DNA of 64,000 bases. It comes from Desulforhabdus amnigena (lineage in GTDB: Bacteria > Desulfobacterota > Syntrophobacteria > Syntrophobacterales > Syntrophobacteraceae). The stretch is from positions 1,887,001-1,951,000 of the forward strand of contig NZ_BSDR01000001.1 of the NCBI RefSeq assembly GCF_027925305.1. The letters are read 5' to 3'. The position numbers and the translations under genes are program-made. Of the stretch, positions 12,215-21,986 are shown in pieces; position 1 is the stretch's first letter, and every line of letters begins with the position of its first letter. The notes under the pieces were generated by a model. It saw nothing but the letters and a program-made list of their open reading frames with translations, was not told the DNA's origin and made no database searches.

Positions 12215-14557
12215 ATGAAAAATGTATTTTCCAATGTTTTAGAATCTATCGGCAACACGCCGCTCATTCGCATCAATCGACTGAATACAAACCCTCATGT
12301 CACACTATACGCCAAATTGGAAGCCAGGAATCCAGGGGGCTCCATTAAAGATCGCACAGCACTCTCAATGATCGAAGCGGCAGAACGGGATGGACTGCTC
12401 ACGCCGGACAAAATCATCATTGAAGCTACAAGCGGCAACACAGGCATTGGTCTGGCAATGGTAGCAGCCGTGAAGGGATACCGCATCATGCTGGCCATGC
12501 CGGAAACGGCGAGCCTGGAACGGCAGAAGATCTTGAAGGCCCTTGGAGCCCAGTTGCTGCTCACCCCCGGCGCTCTGGCGACGGACGGCGCCATCGAAGA
12601 GGTCTACAACCTGGTCAGGGAAAACCCCGATCGCTATTTCATGGCCGACCAGTACAATAATCCCGCCAATCCAGCCGCCCATCGCTTCGGAACGGGTCCG
12701 GAGATCTACGAGCAAACGGACGGCAAGGTGACCGCCGTCGTCGTCACGCTCGGAACCACGGGTACAGCCATGGGCATTCTGCAGGCCATGAAGGAAAGAA
12801 ATCCCGCTATTGAAGTTGTCGCTGTGGAGCCTTATCCAAGCCACAAGATTCAGGGTTTGAAAAACATGAAGGAATCTTATGTGCCCGGGATTTTTGACCG
12901 TCACTCTCTCGATCGCATCGTGCACGTGAAAGATGAAGAAGCTTTCGAAATGGCACGCAGGCTGGCCCGGGAGGAAGGTATTTTTGCGGGCATGAGTTCG
13001 GGAGCAGCGATGGCCGCCGCAGTACGACTCGCCAACGAAGTCACGGAGGGGGTCATCGTGGCCATTCTCCCCGACGGCGGAGATCGGTATCTCAGCACCA
13101 ACCTCTTTACCACCATGCTGGAACCCGATTTTCGCTTCTTCAATCTTCTCGGCAGAGAAAAAATAGACTTCAAACCCGTACAGGAAGGAAAAGTGCGGGT
13201 CTTCGTGACAGGTCCCCCCCTGGATCAACTTCTTACCCTTCAGGAATCACGCCGATTCATTCTGGCGGATCTCCTTACACGGTTCCTCCTTTCCAAAGGT
13301 TTCTCCGTGAACCAGGTCATCCTCATTCCAGACCTGGACAGCCGCACGATTCAAGGGGCATGCACGGCCAAAATGGACCTGGCCTCCTACACCCAGCAGC
13401 AGGTGGATCATTTCTTGGCCGACCTCGACAGTTTGAAGGTTCAGCGAGCATACCGCTACCCTCGCACCACCGAACACATCGACACTATCGCGGAGTTTAC
13501 CAAATCTCTCATTGAAAAAGGTGCAGCCTATGAAAAGTTGCGCTCCGTTTACTTCGACCTTTCCAAGAGCAAAGACTATGGAGCCCTCTCGCGCATCAAT
13601 CTGAAAAAAATACGGCTGGGAACCACTGTCGACCTGGATGCCTATGAAAAGCAAAACCCAAGGGATTTCGCCCTCTTGAAACGTGCCACACTCGCCGAAC
13701 TCAAACGGGGCAGTTTCATGAAAACCGATTGGGGCAACGTGCTTCCAACCTGGCATATTGCCAGTGTCTCTGTCGCCTTGCATGATCTGGGCTCCCCCAT
13801 AGACATTCAGGTGAGCAGCGTGGACTTCCTTTTTCCGCACCTTGAAAATGTTCGGGAGATCGGAGAGGCTTTGACAGGAAAACCCTTTGCCAATGTGTGG
13901 ATGGTTTCCGAACGCATCTGGTCCAACAAGGAAGAAAAGGCTCAAAACGGAATAGACGAAAACATTTCCATACGGGAACTCATTGCCGGCGGATACTCGC
14001 CCCTGGAGATTCGCTACTGGCTGCTGAGCACTCATTACCGCAAGCCCATTCATGCGACTCCTCAAAACATTCAAAATGCCGTACGGGGATATCAGCGGTT
14101 GAAAGAATTCATCCGCCGCGTAAAGTATTCCCAGGCTGGCGGTGAAGAGCACAAACTGATTCCTGAAATACTTTATGCTCTGGAACATGATTTCTTCGAT
14201 GCCCTTGCCGATGATCTGAATATGCCCAATGCCATTGCAGGCCTTTTCAAGTTCATCCGGCAGATCAATCCCATCCTGGAACAGTCACAGTTCAGTGAGG
14301 CGCAACGCAAGCAAATTATGGATGTTCTACAGAACTTGAATGGAATCCTCGGTGTCTTTGACATGGACCTGCAACCGCTGGATGAAAAAGAGGAAAAGAT
14401 CATCAAAGAGCGGGAGGAGGCACGAAAATCAGGGGATTGGGAGAAAGCGGACCGCCTGAGAGAAGAACTTCTGGAGCGCGGAATTCAGATTTTAGACAGC
14501 CCCACCGGCACACAGTGGGAACGCGTGGGAAGAAAAGCTTGGTACTCGAGATCGTAA
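12215..14557 (+). CDS. Cysteine synthase fused to a degenerate cysteinyl-tRNA synthetase-like domain
   Basis: A 780-residue two-part protein. Residues 1 to about 305 form a complete PLP-dependent O-acetylserine sulfhydrylase: Lys45 in GGSIKDRT, ATSGNTGIG, and the glycine loop TLGTTGTAMG. From about residue 325 to the end the chain follows cysteinyl-tRNA synthetase (HLENVREIGEALTGKPFANVW, the helical DALADDLNMPNAI region and the C-terminal RKSGDWEKADRLREEL). The catalytic features of CysRS are gone. CGPT reads TGPP, no HIGH motif is seen, the zinc-ligand Cys of WHIEC is Ser, HHEN is HLEN, and KMSKS is absent. It should make cysteine but probably cannot charge tRNA. The RBS is weak. Confidence 0.85.
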   Translation: MKNVFSNVLESIGNTPLIRINRLNTNPHVTLYAKLEARNPGGSIKDRTALSMIEAAERDGLLTPDKIIIEATSGNTGIGLAMVAAVKGYRIMLAMPETASLERQKILKALGAQLLLTPGALATDGAIEEVYNLVRENPDRYFMADQYNNPANPAAHRFGTGPEIYEQTDGKVTAVVVTLGTTGTAMGILQAMKERNPAIEVVAVEPYPSHKIQGLKNMKESYVPGIFDRHSLDRIVHVKDEEAFEMARRLAREEGIFAGMSSGAAMAAAVRLANEVTEGVIVAILPDGGDRYLSTNLFTTMLEPDFRFFNLLGREKIDFKPVQEGKVRVFVTGPPLDQLLTLQESRRFILADLLTRFLLSKGFSVNQVILIPDLDSRTIQGACTAKMDLASYTQQQVDHFLADLDSLKVQRAYRYPRTTEHIDTIAEFTKSLIEKGAAYEKLRSVYFDLSKSKDYGALSRINLKKIRLGTTVDLDAYEKQNPRDFALLKRATLAELKRGSFMKTDWGNVLPTWHIASVSVALHDLGSPIDIQVSSVDFLFPHLENVREIGEALTGKPFANVWMVSERIWSNKEEKAQNGIDENISIRELIAGGYSPLEIRYWLLSTHYRKPIHATPQNIQNAVRGYQRLKEFIRRVKYSQAGGEEHKLIPEILYALEHDFFDALADDLNMPNAIAGLFKFIRQINPILEQSQFSEAQRKQIMDVLQNLNGILGVFDMDLQPLDEKEEKIIKEREEARKSGDWEKADRLREELLERGIQILDSPTGTQWERVGRKAWYSRS

Positions 14558-16996: not shown

Positions 16997-17273
16997 CATG
17001 AGCCATGAGCCTTTTTTATAAAAACCTACGCACCTGAAAAAAGATGGATTCGTAAGATGTCGTCATCCCAGTGAAAGGCGGGGGCTAGGAGTTTTGTAAG
17101 CTACTAAAAACACTGGATTCCTCCTTTGATCGGAATGACAAAATGGCACTTTTCGGGACTTTTTGTGAGACCATCAAAAAAACTCTTGCTCTATAATCCA
17201 ACAATATCTATTGTACCCCCGCACTTTATTCACTATTATTTTTTAGTTAACTGAGAGACAGGAAGCATCATCC
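16997..17273. other. Gene-free gap with two repeat fragments and a -10-like box
   Basis: An ATGAGCCATGAGCCTTTTTT element lies at the end of the preceding gene (about 16998-17017) and recurs at 39.1 and 46.0 kb. A longer element (about 17060-17180) contains CGTCATCCCAGTGAAAGG and GATCGGAATGACAAAATGG, a weakly palindromic pair. TATAAT at 17192-17197 is a good -10 for the L,D-transpeptidase, but no matching -35 is clear. Confidence 0.5.
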
Positions 17274-18227
17274 ATGAAGATTCGGGGCCTTTTGTTGTTG
17301 CTGTTTTTTTCCGTCGTTGCGATGACTCTCCCTCCCACCATTTCGGCCGAAGAGGAATTTACCGCGACGATAAAGCGTTATCCCTACCGCATACCCGACT
17401 TGACGGTCATTGGATCTCCTACGGCCTACATCATTCAGCCTAAAGACACCTTGCTCGATATCGCCAGGCGCAATGCGCTGGGCTATAACGAAGTGGAACT
17501 TCTCTACCCTCGCATGGATGCATGGGTTCCCCCCAACGGCAAACGCATTACCGTCCCGACTTTCTGGGTTCTCCCCCCGACGCAACACGAACAATTGGTC
17601 ATCAATGTCGCGGAACTGAGGCTCTACTTCTTCGACAGGACGACTTCCACCGTCCAGACCAATCCCATCGGGATCGGCGATGAGGGTTGGGAAACTCCTC
17701 TGGGAACCTTTTCCATCACCGAAAAACGCCCCAATCCGGTATGGTATGTCCCGCAATCCCTTCAGGCAAAGTATGGTATGGCATCCATGCCGCCGGGTCC
17801 CGAAAACCCATTGGGTGAATTCGTAATGAAATTTTCCGCCGGCGCTTATGGGATTCATGGAACGGCAATGCCCTGGGGTGTTGGACGTTTGGTGAGTCAT
17901 GGCTGCATACGGTGCTATCCCGAACACATCCGTATCCTTTACCCTCAGGTCCCCATAGGCGCAAAACTGGAGATCATTTATGAACCGGTTAAGATAGGCC
18001 AGAAAAACGGACAGATATTCGTAGAAGCCCACCCGGACGTCTATCGTAAAATTCCTGATTATATGCAGTATGCTACGGACAAGCTTGCAAAATGCCCTCT
18101 GGCCGATCGTGTAGATATGAATAAATTTCATATGGCCATAGATCTTCAGAACGGGGTGCCAACAAATATCACTCGCATCTCCGCTGAAGATTTTTCTCCA
18201 AAATTGGTTGGATTTTCACAAGAATGA
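17274..18227 (+). CDS. L,D-transpeptidase (YkuD/ErfK type) with LysM domain
   Basis: A 317-residue periplasmic enzyme. A signal peptide (residues 1 to about 26, hydrophobic core LLLLLFFSVVAM) is followed by a LysM peptidoglycan-binding segment (IIQPKDTLLDIARRN) and then the YkuD domain from about residue 105. The catalytic cysteine is in SHGCIR, with the conserved HGT 15 residues before it. Such enzymes make 3-3 crosslinks or attach lipoproteins to meso-DAP. The order and length match E. coli LdtA/B/C (ErfK, YbiS, YcfS), which anchor Braun lipoprotein. An Lpp-like lipoprotein ending in lysine lies 270 bases downstream. Confidence 0.9.
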   Translation: MKIRGLLLLLFFSVVAMTLPPTISAEEEFTATIKRYPYRIPDLTVIGSPTAYIIQPKDTLLDIARRNALGYNEVELLYPRMDAWVPPNGKRITVPTFWVLPPTQHEQLVINVAELRLYFFDRTTSTVQTNPIGIGDEGWETPLGTFSITEKRPNPVWYVPQSLQAKYGMASMPPGPENPLGEFVMKFSAGAYGIHGTAMPWGVGRLVSHGCIRCYPEHIRILYPQVPIGAKLEIIYEPVKIGQKNGQIFVEAHPDVYRKIPDYMQYATDKLAKCPLADRVDMNKFHMAIDLQNGVPTNITRISAEDFSPKLVGFSQE

Positions 18228-18496
18228 TCAACACTTTTTTTCCTGTCGGACCGCAAGGAATGGGCTATTTCAACTCGAAAATCGCTCAAAAATTTTCTTG
18301 ATTTTATTGCCTTTCTAGAGTAGCGTATTTCGAGATTTTGTGGAAACGGGTTGGAATGTAGATTTAAAATTATATTTGAATTTTGGCCAATCGATTTCGA
18401 GGGGGGGTGAGAAGGGCAGGAACCCTGAGGAAGATTGTCAAAAGAGGCTGAGGTTGTTTTTTTGTGATAGTTTTCTTTTTTTTGAGGAGGAGAGAG

Positions 18497-18757
18497 ATGA
18501 AAAGAGTATTGTCCGTTCTGTTTGTTGTAGCTTTGGCATTCACCATGATTTCTGGCTGTGCTTGTTCCCAGGATGCAAAGAAATGCCAGGAAATGTGTGC
18601 CACCGCCATGGATAAGGCACAGGCAATCGAGCAACAATGTACTTCTAGTGCAAGAGCTGCTGAAGCCGCTGCACAAAAAGCCGAAGCTGCTGCTCGTAGA
18701 GCCGAAGCTGCTGCAGACAAAGCAGAATCTATTTTCATGAAGCACATGAAGAAGTAA
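18497..18757 (+). CDS. Alanine-zipper (Lpp/OprI-like) outer-membrane lipoprotein ending in lysine
   Basis: Eighty-six residues from the ATG at 18497, preceded by GAGGAGGAGAGAG. The lipobox MISG-C places the lipidated Cys at 21. The 66-residue mature chain is an alanine-rich heptad helix (repeats of AAEAAA/KAEAAARRAEAAADKAE) ending HMKK. Size, trimeric coiled-coil pattern and C-terminal lysine are those of Braun lipoprotein, whose last lysine is joined to peptidoglycan. Four extra cysteines (23, 30, 34, 48) are unusual. The upstream L,D-transpeptidase is the expected partner. It has its own terminator, so it may be a highly expressed single-gene transcript. Confidence 0.8.
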   Translation: MKRVLSVLFVVALAFTMISGCACSQDAKKCQEMCATAMDKAQAIEQQCTSSARAAEAAAQKAEAAARRAEAAADKAESIFMKHMKK

Positions 18758-18783
18758 TTTGATTTCCATTTGCATTCAAAAAT

Positions 18784-18820
18784 AAAGGCTGGCGAAATAG
18801 ATTTCGCCAGCCTTTATTTT
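18784..18820 (+). terminator. Rho-independent terminator of the lipoprotein gene
   Basis: AAAGGCTGGCGAAAT (18784-18798) and ATTTCGCCAGCCTTT (18801-18815) form a perfect 15-bp stem with a 2-base centre, followed by ATTTTT. This is a very strong intrinsic terminator, usual for abundant short mRNAs. Confidence 0.92.
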
Positions 18821-19096
18821 TCTACCCCTCTATTCCCTGCTTCAACATCAGCCGGTCAAAGAAATACTCCATTCAATTAAGGCTCAATGAATTCAGTTGA
18901 CCCTGACCAGGATATCGAAAAAAACTCCCTCCACGAGAGCATTTCTCATCATCACATCAAAGACGGTGTGATGAAAAACAGGCTAATTGATCCGCAGATT
19001 GCACAGCTTTTCGCAGATCAAGAAGAGTCCTCTTTTCTTGGACTTGGTGGGATTTAATCCGTGCAATCTGTGCAAGCTGCGGATACACACACAAAG
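18821..19096. repeat. Gene-free gap with imperfect inverted repeat
   Basis: ATCCGCAGATTGCACAG near 18990 and a complementary GTGCAATCTGTGCAAGCTGCGGAT near 19060 form a long imperfect inverted repeat around a short AGGAGAGG-like centre. The rest shows no coding frame that fits. Confidence 0.45.
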
Positions 19097-19567
19097 CTAC
19101 TCCCCCTTGCCATCATTTTTGGATTTATCCACACTTCCAAAAACAAACTTTCCAAGCAACTGTTCGATATCCAAAGGGGGCTGTGTATCCTGTATGGTCC
19201 CACCAGGCTGAATGTAATCCTCAGAGGCGCCAGGACTTATTGCGATATACTTGTCGCCAATGATTCCCATCGTTTTGATGCTGGCAATGACATCATCCTC
19301 CAATTTAACCCCATCCTTGATGTTCAAAGTAACCTCTGCTCGGCCATCTTTTAACTTAATGGTCTTCACTTGACCGATGTCGACTCCCGCCATGGTGACA
19401 GCAGATTTTTCCTTCAGACCCGCCACATTGGAAAAGATGGCATGCACGTCGTACCCCGATCTCCCAAAGGGATGAACATCTCCCAGTTTGAAAGAAAGAT
19501 ACGAGAGACATATAAGACCAATCAGAAGAAAAAAACCCACACCCAATTCCAGCCCTTTTCGATCCAT
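19097..19567 (-). CDS. mlaD: MlaD: MCE-domain lipid-binding component of the Mla transporter
   Basis: A 156-residue protein with one N-terminal membrane anchor (GVGFFLLIGLICLSYLSF) and a single MCE domain (VTMAGVDIGQVKTIKL, VTLNIKDGVKLEDDV, IIGDKYIAISPG). It forms a hexameric ring on the inner membrane that passes phospholipid between MlaFEB and periplasmic MlaC. The start follows CGAGGGAATACGGT. It is the last gene of a four-gene minus-strand operon (mlaB, F, E, D); mlaC and mlaA do not follow here. The product is shorter at the C-terminus than E. coli MlaD. Confidence 0.9.
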   Translation of the reverse strand: MDRKGLELGVGFFLLIGLICLSYLSFKLGDVHPFGRSGYDVHAIFSNVAGLKEKSAVTMAGVDIGQVKTIKLKDGRAEVTLNIKDGVKLEDDVIASIKTMGIIGDKYIAISPGASEDYIQPGGTIQDTQPPLDIEQLLGKFVFGSVDKSKNDGKGE

Positions 19568-19584
19568 ACCGTATTCCCTCGAAA

Positions 19585-20370
19585 TTATAGTAAGATGGAG
19601 GTAATCACATAATCACTCATCAGAACCGAGATAGACGCGTAGACGACTGCTTGTGTCGTTGCCTGACTCACTTCTTCGGGCCCAAAACTTCCCTGATCCA
19701 GCCCGGCGTAGTAGCCCTTGTAGGAACAGATCCAGATCATCAGAACGGCAAAGCTGAAGGACTTCACAATCCCCATGTAAACGTCTTCCCAGACCACGCT
19801 CGATGTCAATCCATCCATGAAGGAGCCAGCGCTTACTCCCAGAAGTTGCACGCTGACGAGATACCCTCCGAAAATCCCAACGACATCGCAGTATGCGGTG
19901 AGCAGGGGCAGCGCAATCAAACCGGCAATGAGTTTGGGAGTGATGAGATATGAAAAGGGGTCGATGGCCATGCATTCCAACGCATCGATTTGCTCTTCGA
20001 TTCTCATGATTCCGATTTCGGCACACATGGCGGACCCGGCTCGTCCCGTAACCATGAGGGCAGTGAGTACGGGCCCCAATTCCCGTATCAAGCTCAAAGC
20101 AACAGCAGATCCCAGAAGCCCTTCGGAACCGAATTTTGAAAGGGTGTAATAACCTTGAAGGCTCAATACCATGCCGGTAAAAGTCGCAGTAAAACCGATC
20201 ACGAAAAAGGACTTGGTCCCGATAAATTGAATCTGTTTGACCGTAAACCAGTATTTACCGGGGGGTCTGGCAATACCGCGTACTACCATGTAAAGGAAGA
20301 CCCCCATCCGCCCCAGGCTCTCCAACTGGTCGAGAACCAGAGCCCCGAGATACCGTACCAATCGCGTCAT
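19585..20370 (-). CDS. mlaE: MlaE: ABC permease for phospholipid transport
   Basis: A 261-residue polytopic permease of the MlaE/YrbE family. An amphipathic N-terminus is followed by five to six hydrophobic spans, with the characteristic family segment SLIRELGPVLTALMVTGRAGSAMCAEIG and later LECMAIDPFSYLITPK. It pairs with MlaF (ATPase) to maintain outer-membrane lipid asymmetry. The start at 20370 has AAAAGGAGAGTTTGA upstream. It is 17 bases before mlaD and about 160 bases after mlaF; that gap holds no gene. Confidence 0.93.
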   Translation of the reverse strand: MTRLVRYLGALVLDQLESLGRMGVFLYMVVRGIARPPGKYWFTVKQIQFIGTKSFFVIGFTATFTGMVLSLQGYYTLSKFGSEGLLGSAVALSLIRELGPVLTALMVTGRAGSAMCAEIGIMRIEEQIDALECMAIDPFSYLITPKLIAGLIALPLLTAYCDVVGIFGGYLVSVQLLGVSAGSFMDGLTSSVVWEDVYMGIVKSFSFAVLMIWICSYKGYYAGLDQGSFGPEEVSQATTQAVVYASISVLMSDYVITSILL

Positions 20371-20532
20371 TCAAACTCTCCTTTTGGAACTTTGGAACTT
20401 GCCTCGAAGCGCCCTCGCAATTGACCTTCGATGATATCGAAAAAGCCGTCGCACCCCCCCGATAATGTGGTCCCATACGCCCCTTCCATTTCCCCTGCTC
20501 CGGAAGAACGGCAAGTCCTCCTCAAAGCCTGA

Positions 20533-21330
20533 TCATCTGCTCAAAAGCCGATTCAGATATTTCTCCGTGCCGGCCTGCTGTTCATCCGCCTCTCTTTCAA
20601 GAAAACGCACCACCGTCTCATCACGGTTATTGCGAATCTCCTCCGGAGTTCCCGAAGCAAGAAGGCGACCATGATCCATGACCACCATCTGATCGGCAAT
20701 TTTGAAGGCGCTCTCGAGTTCGTGGGTCACGACGATGATGGTCATCCTCAGGGTATCACGAAGCTCGAGAATCAAATCGTCGAGGCCCGCTGCAGTGATG
20801 GGATCGAGCCCCGAAGAAGGCTCGTCAACGAAAAGAATTTCCGGGTCCATTGCCAGAGCGCGGGCAAGGCCGGCCCGTTTCCGCATTCCGCCGCTAAGCT
20901 GCGAAGGCATATAGTCTCCAAAATCGGACAACCCCACAAGATTCAGCTTGATAAGGGTCATGATGCCGATCGTCTCGTCGGGCAGACGCGTATGCACCTT
21001 CAGCGGCACCGCTATGTTCTGACTCACCGACAGGGAGTTGAAAAGAGCTCCGCTCTGAAAGAGGACGCCGATCCGGCGACGATAGGCTTCCATACTCTCT
21101 CCACTGAATTTCCCCAAGTCATTGCCTTCAATGAAAATTTGACCGGGAGCGGTTGGCTTCAAACCGATGAGGTGGCGGAGGAGCGTGGTTTTTCCACATC
21201 CGCTGCGTCCCATGATCACCGTCACCTGCCTGCCGGGAATACTGAACCGGACATCGAAAAGGACCTGTCGTCCCTTGTAGTAGCTGTTGAGACCCTTGAT
21301 ATCGATCATGTTGAGAGAGGTCATCCTCAC
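20533..21330 (-). CDS. mlaF: MlaF: ABC ATPase for phospholipid transport
   Basis: A 265-residue ATP-binding subunit. Walker A GRSGCGKTT, signature LSGGMRKRAGLARAL (the GGM form typical of the MlaF group), Walker B ILFVDEPSSGLDP and switch His in VVTHEL are all intact. It drives lipid movement through MlaE. The start is uncertain: GTG 21330, ATG 21324 or ATG 21309 are all in frame, and none has an ideally spaced RBS. It begins a few bases after the mlaB stop, so translation is probably coupled. Confidence 0.92.
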   Translation of the reverse strand: MRMTSLNMIDIKGLNSYYKGRQVLFDVRFSIPGRQVTVIMGRSGCGKTTLLRHLIGLKPTAPGQIFIEGNDLGKFSGESMEAYRRRIGVLFQSGALFNSLSVSQNIAVPLKVHTRLPDETIGIMTLIKLNLVGLSDFGDYMPSQLSGGMRKRAGLARALAMDPEILFVDEPSSGLDPITAAGLDDLILELRDTLRMTIIVVTHELESAFKIADQMVVMDHGRLLASGTPEEIRNNRDETVVRFLEREADEQQAGTEKYLNRLLSR

Positions 21331-21345
21331 CGTCCATTTCCATCT

Positions 21346-21663
21346 TCAAAGCTGGTTTTCTTTGTCGAATACTTCACCGAGACGCGCCAGTCGAATCATC
21401 TGCCTCGCGTTCTCATTCAATCCTACAAGGTTGAACTCCCCGCCCTTCCGCCTGAGGAGCCTGAATACCTCAACCAGGACGGCAATTCCCGCGGTGTCCA
21501 GTTTGGAGGTCAAGGAAAAGTCGATTTCAAGTGTTTTCAGCCCTTTGATTTTGGCAATCTTGATGAGCTCTTTTCGAATATCCGCAGCAGTATTGAAATC
21601 GAATGCCCCCTCCAGCTGCACCACGGCTTCATGAGGTTCGTTTTGATAAAACTTGAGCGACAC
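21346..21663 (-). CDS. mlaB: MlaB: STAS-domain protein of the Mla transporter
   Basis: A 105-residue STAS domain from the GTG at 21663, preceded by GGGGGGA. The fold shows as AVVQLEGAFDFNTA, LKTLEIDFSLTSKLDTAGIAVLVEVF and a C-terminal helix MIRLARLGEVF. MlaB stabilises and activates MlaFE. It is the first gene of the operon, whereas in E. coli mlaB is last. A longer in-frame start at 21708 lacks an RBS. Confidence 0.82.
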   Translation of the reverse strand: MSLKFYQNEPHEAVVQLEGAFDFNTAADIRKELIKIAKIKGLKTLEIDFSLTSKLDTAGIAVLVEVFRLLRRKGGEFNLVGLNENARQMIRLARLGEVFDKENQL

Positions 21664-21986
21664 GGTAAATCCCCCCAAAGGAAGTATGAGACAGGACAAA
21701 GCCGCCACCCTTGGTCATGGGAGGCCAAAGCGATTGATTCCGGACTTTAAAAAACCATTTATATAAGCTGAATTTTTATGTTTGGGCGAAACAATTTAAC
21801 CATAAGCAAAAACTTCATGAAGCAGGCATCCATGATCACAAGCTTGACCGCACCCTTAAAAAACCACTATACTTTCATCCTGTTTTGCATTTGTTTATTT
21901 TGTTTTTTCTCCAATGTCCACATATTGTGTCACACAAATCGGGAAAATTATACATTTGAAATCGATCTCATACAGAAGGAGTGGCC
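21664..21986. other. Divergent control region of mlaB and the nitroreductase gene
   Basis: This 320-base AT-rich region separates two divergent units. TATATAA on the minus strand near 21755 and AT-rich stretches around 21880-21960 could be promoter parts. No gene is supported. Confidence 0.4.

Follow-up and report, generated by a model that had tools for sequence, protein, structure and literature searches.

Does Desulforhabdus amnigena tie its outer membrane to the peptidoglycan through a lipoprotein of the Braun type, and does it keep a dedicated enzyme for the attachment? The question is raised by two neighbouring genes in a stretch of 64,000 nt (here called the window, always meaning the whole stretch analysed) of its genome, which is a single contig of 4.54 Mb. 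One gene codes for an L,D-transpeptidase (Ldt) and the other for a small alanine-rich lipoprotein (Table 1). We think it probable that the pair forms a covalent tether between outer membrane and peptidoglycan together with its own attaching enzyme. This reading comes from sequence analysis and is well supported by comparative genomics, namely by the co-occurrence of both genes, their adjacency, the changes in their orientation, the terminal lysine of the lipoprotein and the type of Ldt. Papers are cited by PMC number, for the portions of their text that were accessible.

Table 1. Features of the locus (window coordinates except in the first row).
Feature	Position	Strand	Basis or detail
Window, Desulforhabdus amnigena	contig NZ_BSDR01000001.1, 1,887,001-1,951,000	forward	
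ldt, L,D-transpeptidase, 317 aa	17274..18227	+	signal peptide, LysM-like region, YkuD, C-terminal part
YkuD catalytic domain, residues 108-234	17595..17975	+	Pfam
Active-site motif SHGCIR, Cys211	17895..17912	+	sequence
Promoter-like site of the lipoprotein gene	18297..18326	+	-35 TTGATT 18298-18303, 17-base spacer, -10 TAGCGT 18321-18326
Shine-Dalgarno-like leader element GGGGGTGAG	18403..18411	+	94 nt upstream of the lipoprotein start codon
Lpp/OprI-like alanine-zipper lipoprotein gene, 86 aa	18497..18757	+	NCBIfam, class homologues
Predicted lipoprotein signal peptide, 20 aa	18497..18556	+	lipobox ISG/C at 18548-18559
Alanine-heptad half of the mature lipoprotein helix	18650..18736	+	class alignment, periodicity, AlphaFold
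C-terminal box HMKK, presumed acceptor Lys86	18743..18754	+	K85 and K86 invariant in 37 aligned sequences
20-bp hairpin, probable terminator	18778..18821		RNA folding

The Ldt and the lipoprotein in the window

The initial annotation had described the enzyme as a LysM-YkuD protein with an intact SHGC. Its YkuD domain passed the Pfam threshold (PF03734, 86 bits, E 5e-24, cut-off 23.4) and SHGCIR conforms to the YkuD motif S/T-x-G-C-h-R, while the LysM part was seen by alignment only. Pfam LysM gave no match to the protein at E<=1, and the region is called LysM-like because the enzyme aligns over its full length, N-terminal LysM-like and C-terminal parts included, with E. coli LdtA/B/C/E at 30-32% identity. 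The best NCBIfam score was that of LdtE (145.7 bits, 1.8e-42), short of the equivalog cut-off of 480. PRK10190 and PRK10260, which we take to stand for E. coli LdtA and LdtB, scored 129.8 and 126.3 bits and did not reach their cut-offs of 517 and 583 either. Pairwise BLAST gave 136 bits for LdtC, 132 for both LdtB and LdtA, and 120 for LdtE. The closest solved structure found by sequence search was 9tyw_A (3.1e-50); the AlphaFold model of the enzyme, built from 5 sequences, was unusable (mean pLDDT 41.8). In SHGCIR an Arg stands two residues past the catalytic Cys, and not the Ala or Asn of most DpaA-like proteins. Arg at that position is reported for transpeptidases and not for most DpaA-like proteins (PMC8263019), and it was present in 68/68 Ldts retrieved. 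The E. coli LdtA/B/C/E fell inside the Ldt tree of the phylum, but with a long-branch warning, so that we make no claim of orthology.

The genome codes for eight YkuD proteins, among which the Ldt in the window is the only strong match to E. coli LdtA/B/C/E (2e-37 to 4e-41, against 1e-5 or weaker for the remaining seven). Two others (L001 and L002) match LdtD. L004 and L005 carry a GC-h-A motif and match DpaA weakly (1e-7 and 8e-5), and no NCBIfam model matched either of them at E<=0.001. The gene of L004 is clustered on one strand with two more YkuD genes, L006 and L007 (genome positions 371087-374435); that of L005 lies elsewhere.

The lipoprotein gene starts 269 bases after ldt, where the initial annotation had correctly placed it downstream and counted 270, and GAGGAGGAGAGAG lies just upstream of its ATG. 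As annotated, the mature protein has 66 residues, ends in KK and contains four extra Cys (mature positions 3, 10, 14 and 28); the lipid-bearing residue is Cys21, with Ala at +2. The annotated alanine heptads stood in the alanine half, where identity at lag 7 was 14/29 against 10/33 for the best other lag tried, but not over the whole mature chain, in which the periodicity of alanine alone was not significant (p 0.24). The p value was 0.04 when other hydrophobic residues were added and 0.005 when Cys was added as well. AlphaFold modelled the monomer as one helix from residue 2 to 85, with a mean pLDDT of 65.8 from 6 sequences; along the predicted helix alanine and Cys form a stripe. When the lipoprotein was compared with the sequences of solved structures, no match at E<=1 came back.

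Of the two Pfam profiles that the initial annotation had proposed as a check, PF04728 (LPP) did not match the lipoprotein at E<=1, by which membership of that family was rejected, and PF11839 (Alanine_zipper) gave 13.9 bits, below its gathering cut-off of 23.1. The profile NF040598 (Ala_zip_lipo, the Lpp/OprI family) matched nearly the full length of the protein with 31.2 bits, below its cut-off of 43. Some members in the phylum do exceed this cut-off: among ten sequences scanned singly, three did so, L121 with 85.9, L113 with 46.8 and L027, a class member, with 44.7 bits. We also scanned a set of 51 sequences composed of the protein in the window, E. coli Lpp, four class members and the remainder from outside the class. 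At E<=0.01 NF040598 matched 46/51, PF11839 34/51 and PF04728 1/51 (best E 1.7e-25), this single match being presumably the E. coli Lpp control. Loose matches to NF040598 mean little because alanine-rich sequences inflate profile scores: at E<=1 it matched in 14/14 control genomes, in one of them above the cut-off. Since the protein scores below the curated cut-offs for both Lpp/OprI and the alanine zipper, on these profiles it is an Lpp/OprI-like variant and not a certified family member.

Both the lipid Cys and the K85 and K86 columns were invariant over 37 aligned class sequences; with the lipobox ISG/C this predicts lipidation. The residue at +2, which governs lipoprotein sorting, was Ala in 35/37 and Cys in 2/37, both compatible with a predicted outer-membrane location. 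All 37 complete class sequences have a C-terminal Lys, 36 ending in KK and one in KKGK, and the mature length was 66 in 25/37. The set leaves out L054, a second match (7e-4) in G042 that looked unrelated by eye, and the lipoprotein of G033, which is split across two contigs (L022 and L048) and whose tail ends in HMKK.

For an abundant protein one would expect a gene with a promoter and a terminator of its own, and the lipoprotein gene seems to have both. A pattern TTG-spacer-TA, derived from the alignment after inspection, was present 5' of the gene and separate from ldt in 28/28 class members looked at, out of the 38 that carry the gene; this is a raw, uncontrolled count, and a general promoter scan of the window did not list the site. 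The Shine-Dalgarno-like element (about AGGRGGTGRG) was found 85-121 nt before the lipoprotein start in 20/28 class members. By inspection no start codon was evident after it in class members, and it is perhaps an mRNA-stabilising leader. The very strong terminator that had been annotated is a probable one on our analysis: the hairpin has 20 consecutive pairs, and a stretch of 78 bases folds at -28.7 kcal/mol (z -7.8), with 0/200 shuffles as stable. The hairpin was missed by a simple terminator scan, probably since its T-run is part of the stem. Within 17000-19100 Rfam returned 5 matches at E<=0.1, each located around the hairpin and short of its gathering score. The hairpin may perhaps serve in two directions, also toward the convergent mlaD-like gene.

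Two other regions of the window can be mentioned here. Convergent to the pair, on the minus strand at 19097-21708, there are genes that by eye resemble mlaD, mlaE, mlaF and a STAS protein, functions known from lipid-asymmetry transport. At 12215-14557 a single ORF resembles, from its translation and by eye, a cysteine synthase fused to a cysteinyl-tRNA synthetase.

Distribution of the pair in the class and the phylum

We searched 55 genomes of the class. Both genes were found in 37, neither in 17 and the lipoprotein gene only in one (G046, where it lies at a contig end), so that the lipoprotein gene was present in 38/55. In 34/38 it adjoins ldt, which always comes first, on the same strand and about 110-520 bp upstream; in G050, G052 and G053 the two genes do not lie together. 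As 12 of the 17 genomes without the pair belong to one family, the absences are clustered and the 55 genomes are not independent observations. Besides, more than the pair is conserved: at least 18 genomes of the class have an mlaD homologue next to it, and several have a homologue of fructose-bisphosphate aldolase or 5-formyl-THF cyclo-ligase nearby. With such general synteny, linkage within the class says little by itself about function. A contig search of named genomes confirmed at least 5 loci.

The survey was extended to 395 genomes of the phylum with a profile built from the class lipoproteins (E<=1e-4). The profile matched in 98/395 genomes, chance alanine-rich matches included; the Ldt search matched in 150/395, with positions listed for 118. 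In at least 67 of the 98 the profile match lies within 3 kb of an Ldt gene, in at least 65 within 1 kb, and this arrangement was found in at least 31 family codes. Outside the class it holds for at least 54 of the 82 genomes with a profile match. A back-of-envelope estimate gives about 0.3 adjacent genomes expected by chance. The other 31/98 had no adjacency among the matches listed, being in part chance matches and in part genomes with the Ldt elsewhere. The conserved synteny that the initial annotation had named as a check was therefore found in the class and well beyond it. Counted per genome among the matches listed, the two genes were on the same strand in 28 (ldt first in 27), convergent in 39 and divergent in none. 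On the Ldt tree, with E. coli LdtE scored as convergent, orientation changed at least 5 times. In E. coli K-12 just 63 bp separate lpp from ldtE and the two genes converge, as in the layout that is commonest in the phylum, which suggests that the pairing is old.

The C-terminal lysine was followed in the same way. Outside the class, 55/57 distinct complete ORFs beside an Ldt gene end in Lys (53 genomes, among the matches listed; G164 was omitted because its ORF is cut at a contig end). A scripted lipobox filter was passed by 47 of the 57 and an alanine filter as well by 45, and in these 45 the mature length varies between 45 and 150 residues. Relatives that keep the pair and lack the lysine had been named at the outset as evidence against a tether; only two Arg-ended second paralogues, in G161 and G377, fit that description. 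Both end in RR and lie beside the Ldt gene; in G377 a paralogue ending in RK is adjacent, and in G161 that paralogue appears interrupted. Among ORFs outside the class that are not beside a listed Ldt, 29/36 end in Lys, and so do 18/20 of those passing as alanine-zipper lipoproteins. The lysine thus goes with the family, whether or not an Ldt gene lies alongside.

A forward test took 20 of the 29 listed genomes with an Ldt and no profile match, and scanned for lipoboxes around the Ldt gene. It gave 27 ORFs, of which seven that were picked by eye as Lpp-like adjoin the Ldt gene; 7/7 end in Lys, and none of the other 20 ORFs does. At 13 of the 20 Ldt loci this lipobox scan revealed no Lpp-like neighbour.

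Some loci have more than one lipoprotein gene. At L100 (G262) three alanine-zipper lipoprotein genes are in tandem beside one ldt, one of them with a mature part of 150 residues. At L115 (G377), L167 (G302), L168 (G189) and L134 (G161) the Lys-ended paralogue is accompanied by another of the alanine-zipper kind that starts with CCQ. Three of these four have a long basic tail, and the ends are RR, AK, KQ and, in G161, RR.

Proposed attachment and the alternatives to it

In the proposed tether, the lipoprotein would be lipidated and then sorted to the outer membrane, where it would assemble into a coiled coil, trimeric if Lpp is a guide and slightly longer than that of E. coli. Its C-terminal Lys would thereby reach the peptidoglycan. 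The Ldt would take a tetrapeptide stem, bind it to Cys211 as a thioester while D-Ala leaves, and transfer the carboxyl group of meso-DAP to the side-chain amine of Lys86. The two YkuD proteins with the GC-h-A motif, L004 and L005, are possible detaching enzymes and might release the lipoprotein again, in the manner of DpaA in E. coli.

Neither the neighbourhood nor the lysine settles the reaction when taken singly. The lysine alone is weak evidence because more than 20% of the periplasmic proteins and lipoproteins of E. coli have such an end (PMC12274547). Adjacency does not prove attachment because the neighbour of lpp in E. coli is LdtE, which forms 3-3 cross-links (PMC8263019). By this example the lipoprotein could be an Lpp-like tether attached by some other enzyme, with the neighbouring Ldt working mainly as a cross-linker, and the top NCBIfam score for LdtE would fit; besides, attachment and cross-linking cannot be assigned to separate lineages of these enzymes (PMC10434034). 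We regard this as unlikely. Two LdtD-like enzymes are available in the genome for cross-linking while a second LdtA/B/C-like enzyme was not found, BLAST ranks LdtC, LdtB and LdtA slightly above LdtE, and the presence or absence of the Ldt tracks that of the lipoprotein in the class.

The lipoprotein could also remain unattached, as a free structural or metal-binding helix, and be linked to ldt just by shared envelope regulation or synteny. The unreached cut-offs for Lpp/OprI and PF11839 and the general synteny in the class agree with this, but adjacency over so many family codes and through several orientation changes, far above the chance expectation, and a nearly invariant terminal Lys make it quite improbable. 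To the idea that the small gene is an ORF artefact, as short alanine-rich ORFs can occur by chance, we give practically no credence: it was set aside because the frame is conserved in 36 relatives at 42-90% identity, and the gene has a promoter-like site, a ribosome site and a lipobox. The dedicated outer-membrane tether put forward in the initial annotation is, in our view, supported by the adjacency and lysine counts from class and phylum.

Cysteines at predicted core positions and comparison with known systems

The extra Cys were placed with a simple heptad-register fit in which Cys had weight zero, the sole control being the frequencies of other residues. In the 37 class members 112/124 extra Cys fall at a/d core positions, against about 26% of the other residues (Ser 28%, Ala 40%). 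Outside the class it was 48/69 in 56 sequences, against about 28%. The sequences are related, so these counts are not independent events. Three of the 37 class members lack extra Cys altogether, so the basic function does not require them. These residues could simply pack the core, bind metal in layers or form disulfides, the last two being the roles that the initial annotation had offered for them. In a trimer, each Cys layer would set three thiols face to face, and such layers are known from designed three-stranded thiolate metal sites. The organisms of this lineage are sulfide-producing anaerobes. That stacked Cys layers bind metal or lock by disulfides, with the stiffness or assembly of the tether responding to metal or redox state, is a rather doubtful suggestion that we put forward tentatively.

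With E. coli Lpp and LdtA/B/C the pair shares the size class, the lipobox, the heptad helix, the terminal Lys, an enzyme of the LdtA/B/C/E type and, in lpp-ldtE, the adjacency. It differs in the alanine zipper, in ending in KK and not RK, in the extra core Cys and in the failure of PF04728 to match; identity to E. coli Lpp is about 25%, a value from a multiple alignment of alanine-rich helices. There is one LdtA/B/C/E-like enzyme in D. amnigena and four in E. coli. OprI of Pseudomonas aeruginosa is of the alanine-zipper kind and adjoins its ldt, and it is not known to have extra Cys. As proposed for the lipoprotein here, a single Ldt, LdtPae2 of the ErfK/YbiS/YcfS/YnhG lineage, anchors OprI, and loss of either leads to EDTA sensitivity (PMC10434034). 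In Dickeya dadantii, Lpp ends in Lys-Lys and a C-terminal Lys box is necessary and sufficient for attachment by YkuD L,D-transpeptidases, similar to the box found here; however, this is a gammaproteobacterium in which two substrates, Lpp and OutB, share both enzymes, Ldt03 and Ldt84 (PMC12274547).

Geobacter presumably belongs to the GTDB phylum of D. amnigena. A long Lpp has already been reported from it, likewise outside Gammaproteobacteria, but with 99 residues or more, and the accessible text mentions neither an attaching enzyme nor a gene pair (PMC8824477). This report qualifies the statement, made in the initial annotation, that Lpp is mainly gammaproteobacterial, which otherwise agrees with the literature: in a survey, PF04728 proteins were confined to some Gammaproteobacteria (PMC8263019), and Lpp is described as restricted to a subset of Proteobacteria (PMC10628300, PMC10260701). 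In the main text of a review, as far as accessible, the word Deltaproteobacteria is absent (PMC12729407). Our literature search, with most subscription journals outside its coverage, returned no recognisable description of the gene pair outside Gammaproteobacteria. What is new is the occurrence of the pair across a phylum, where papers confine Lpp to some Proteobacteria, and the extra Cys at core positions.

The presence of the pair in so many families of another phylum, often in the convergent layout known from E. coli, suggests that covalent tethering of the outer membrane by a lipoprotein is older or more widespread than these papers allow. The pair could supply a substrate for DpaA-like enzymes in species without a known Lpp, and the range of mature lengths is a natural variation in the presumed spacer. 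Finally, the Cys-lined version makes the idea of a metal- or redox-sensitive tether testable.
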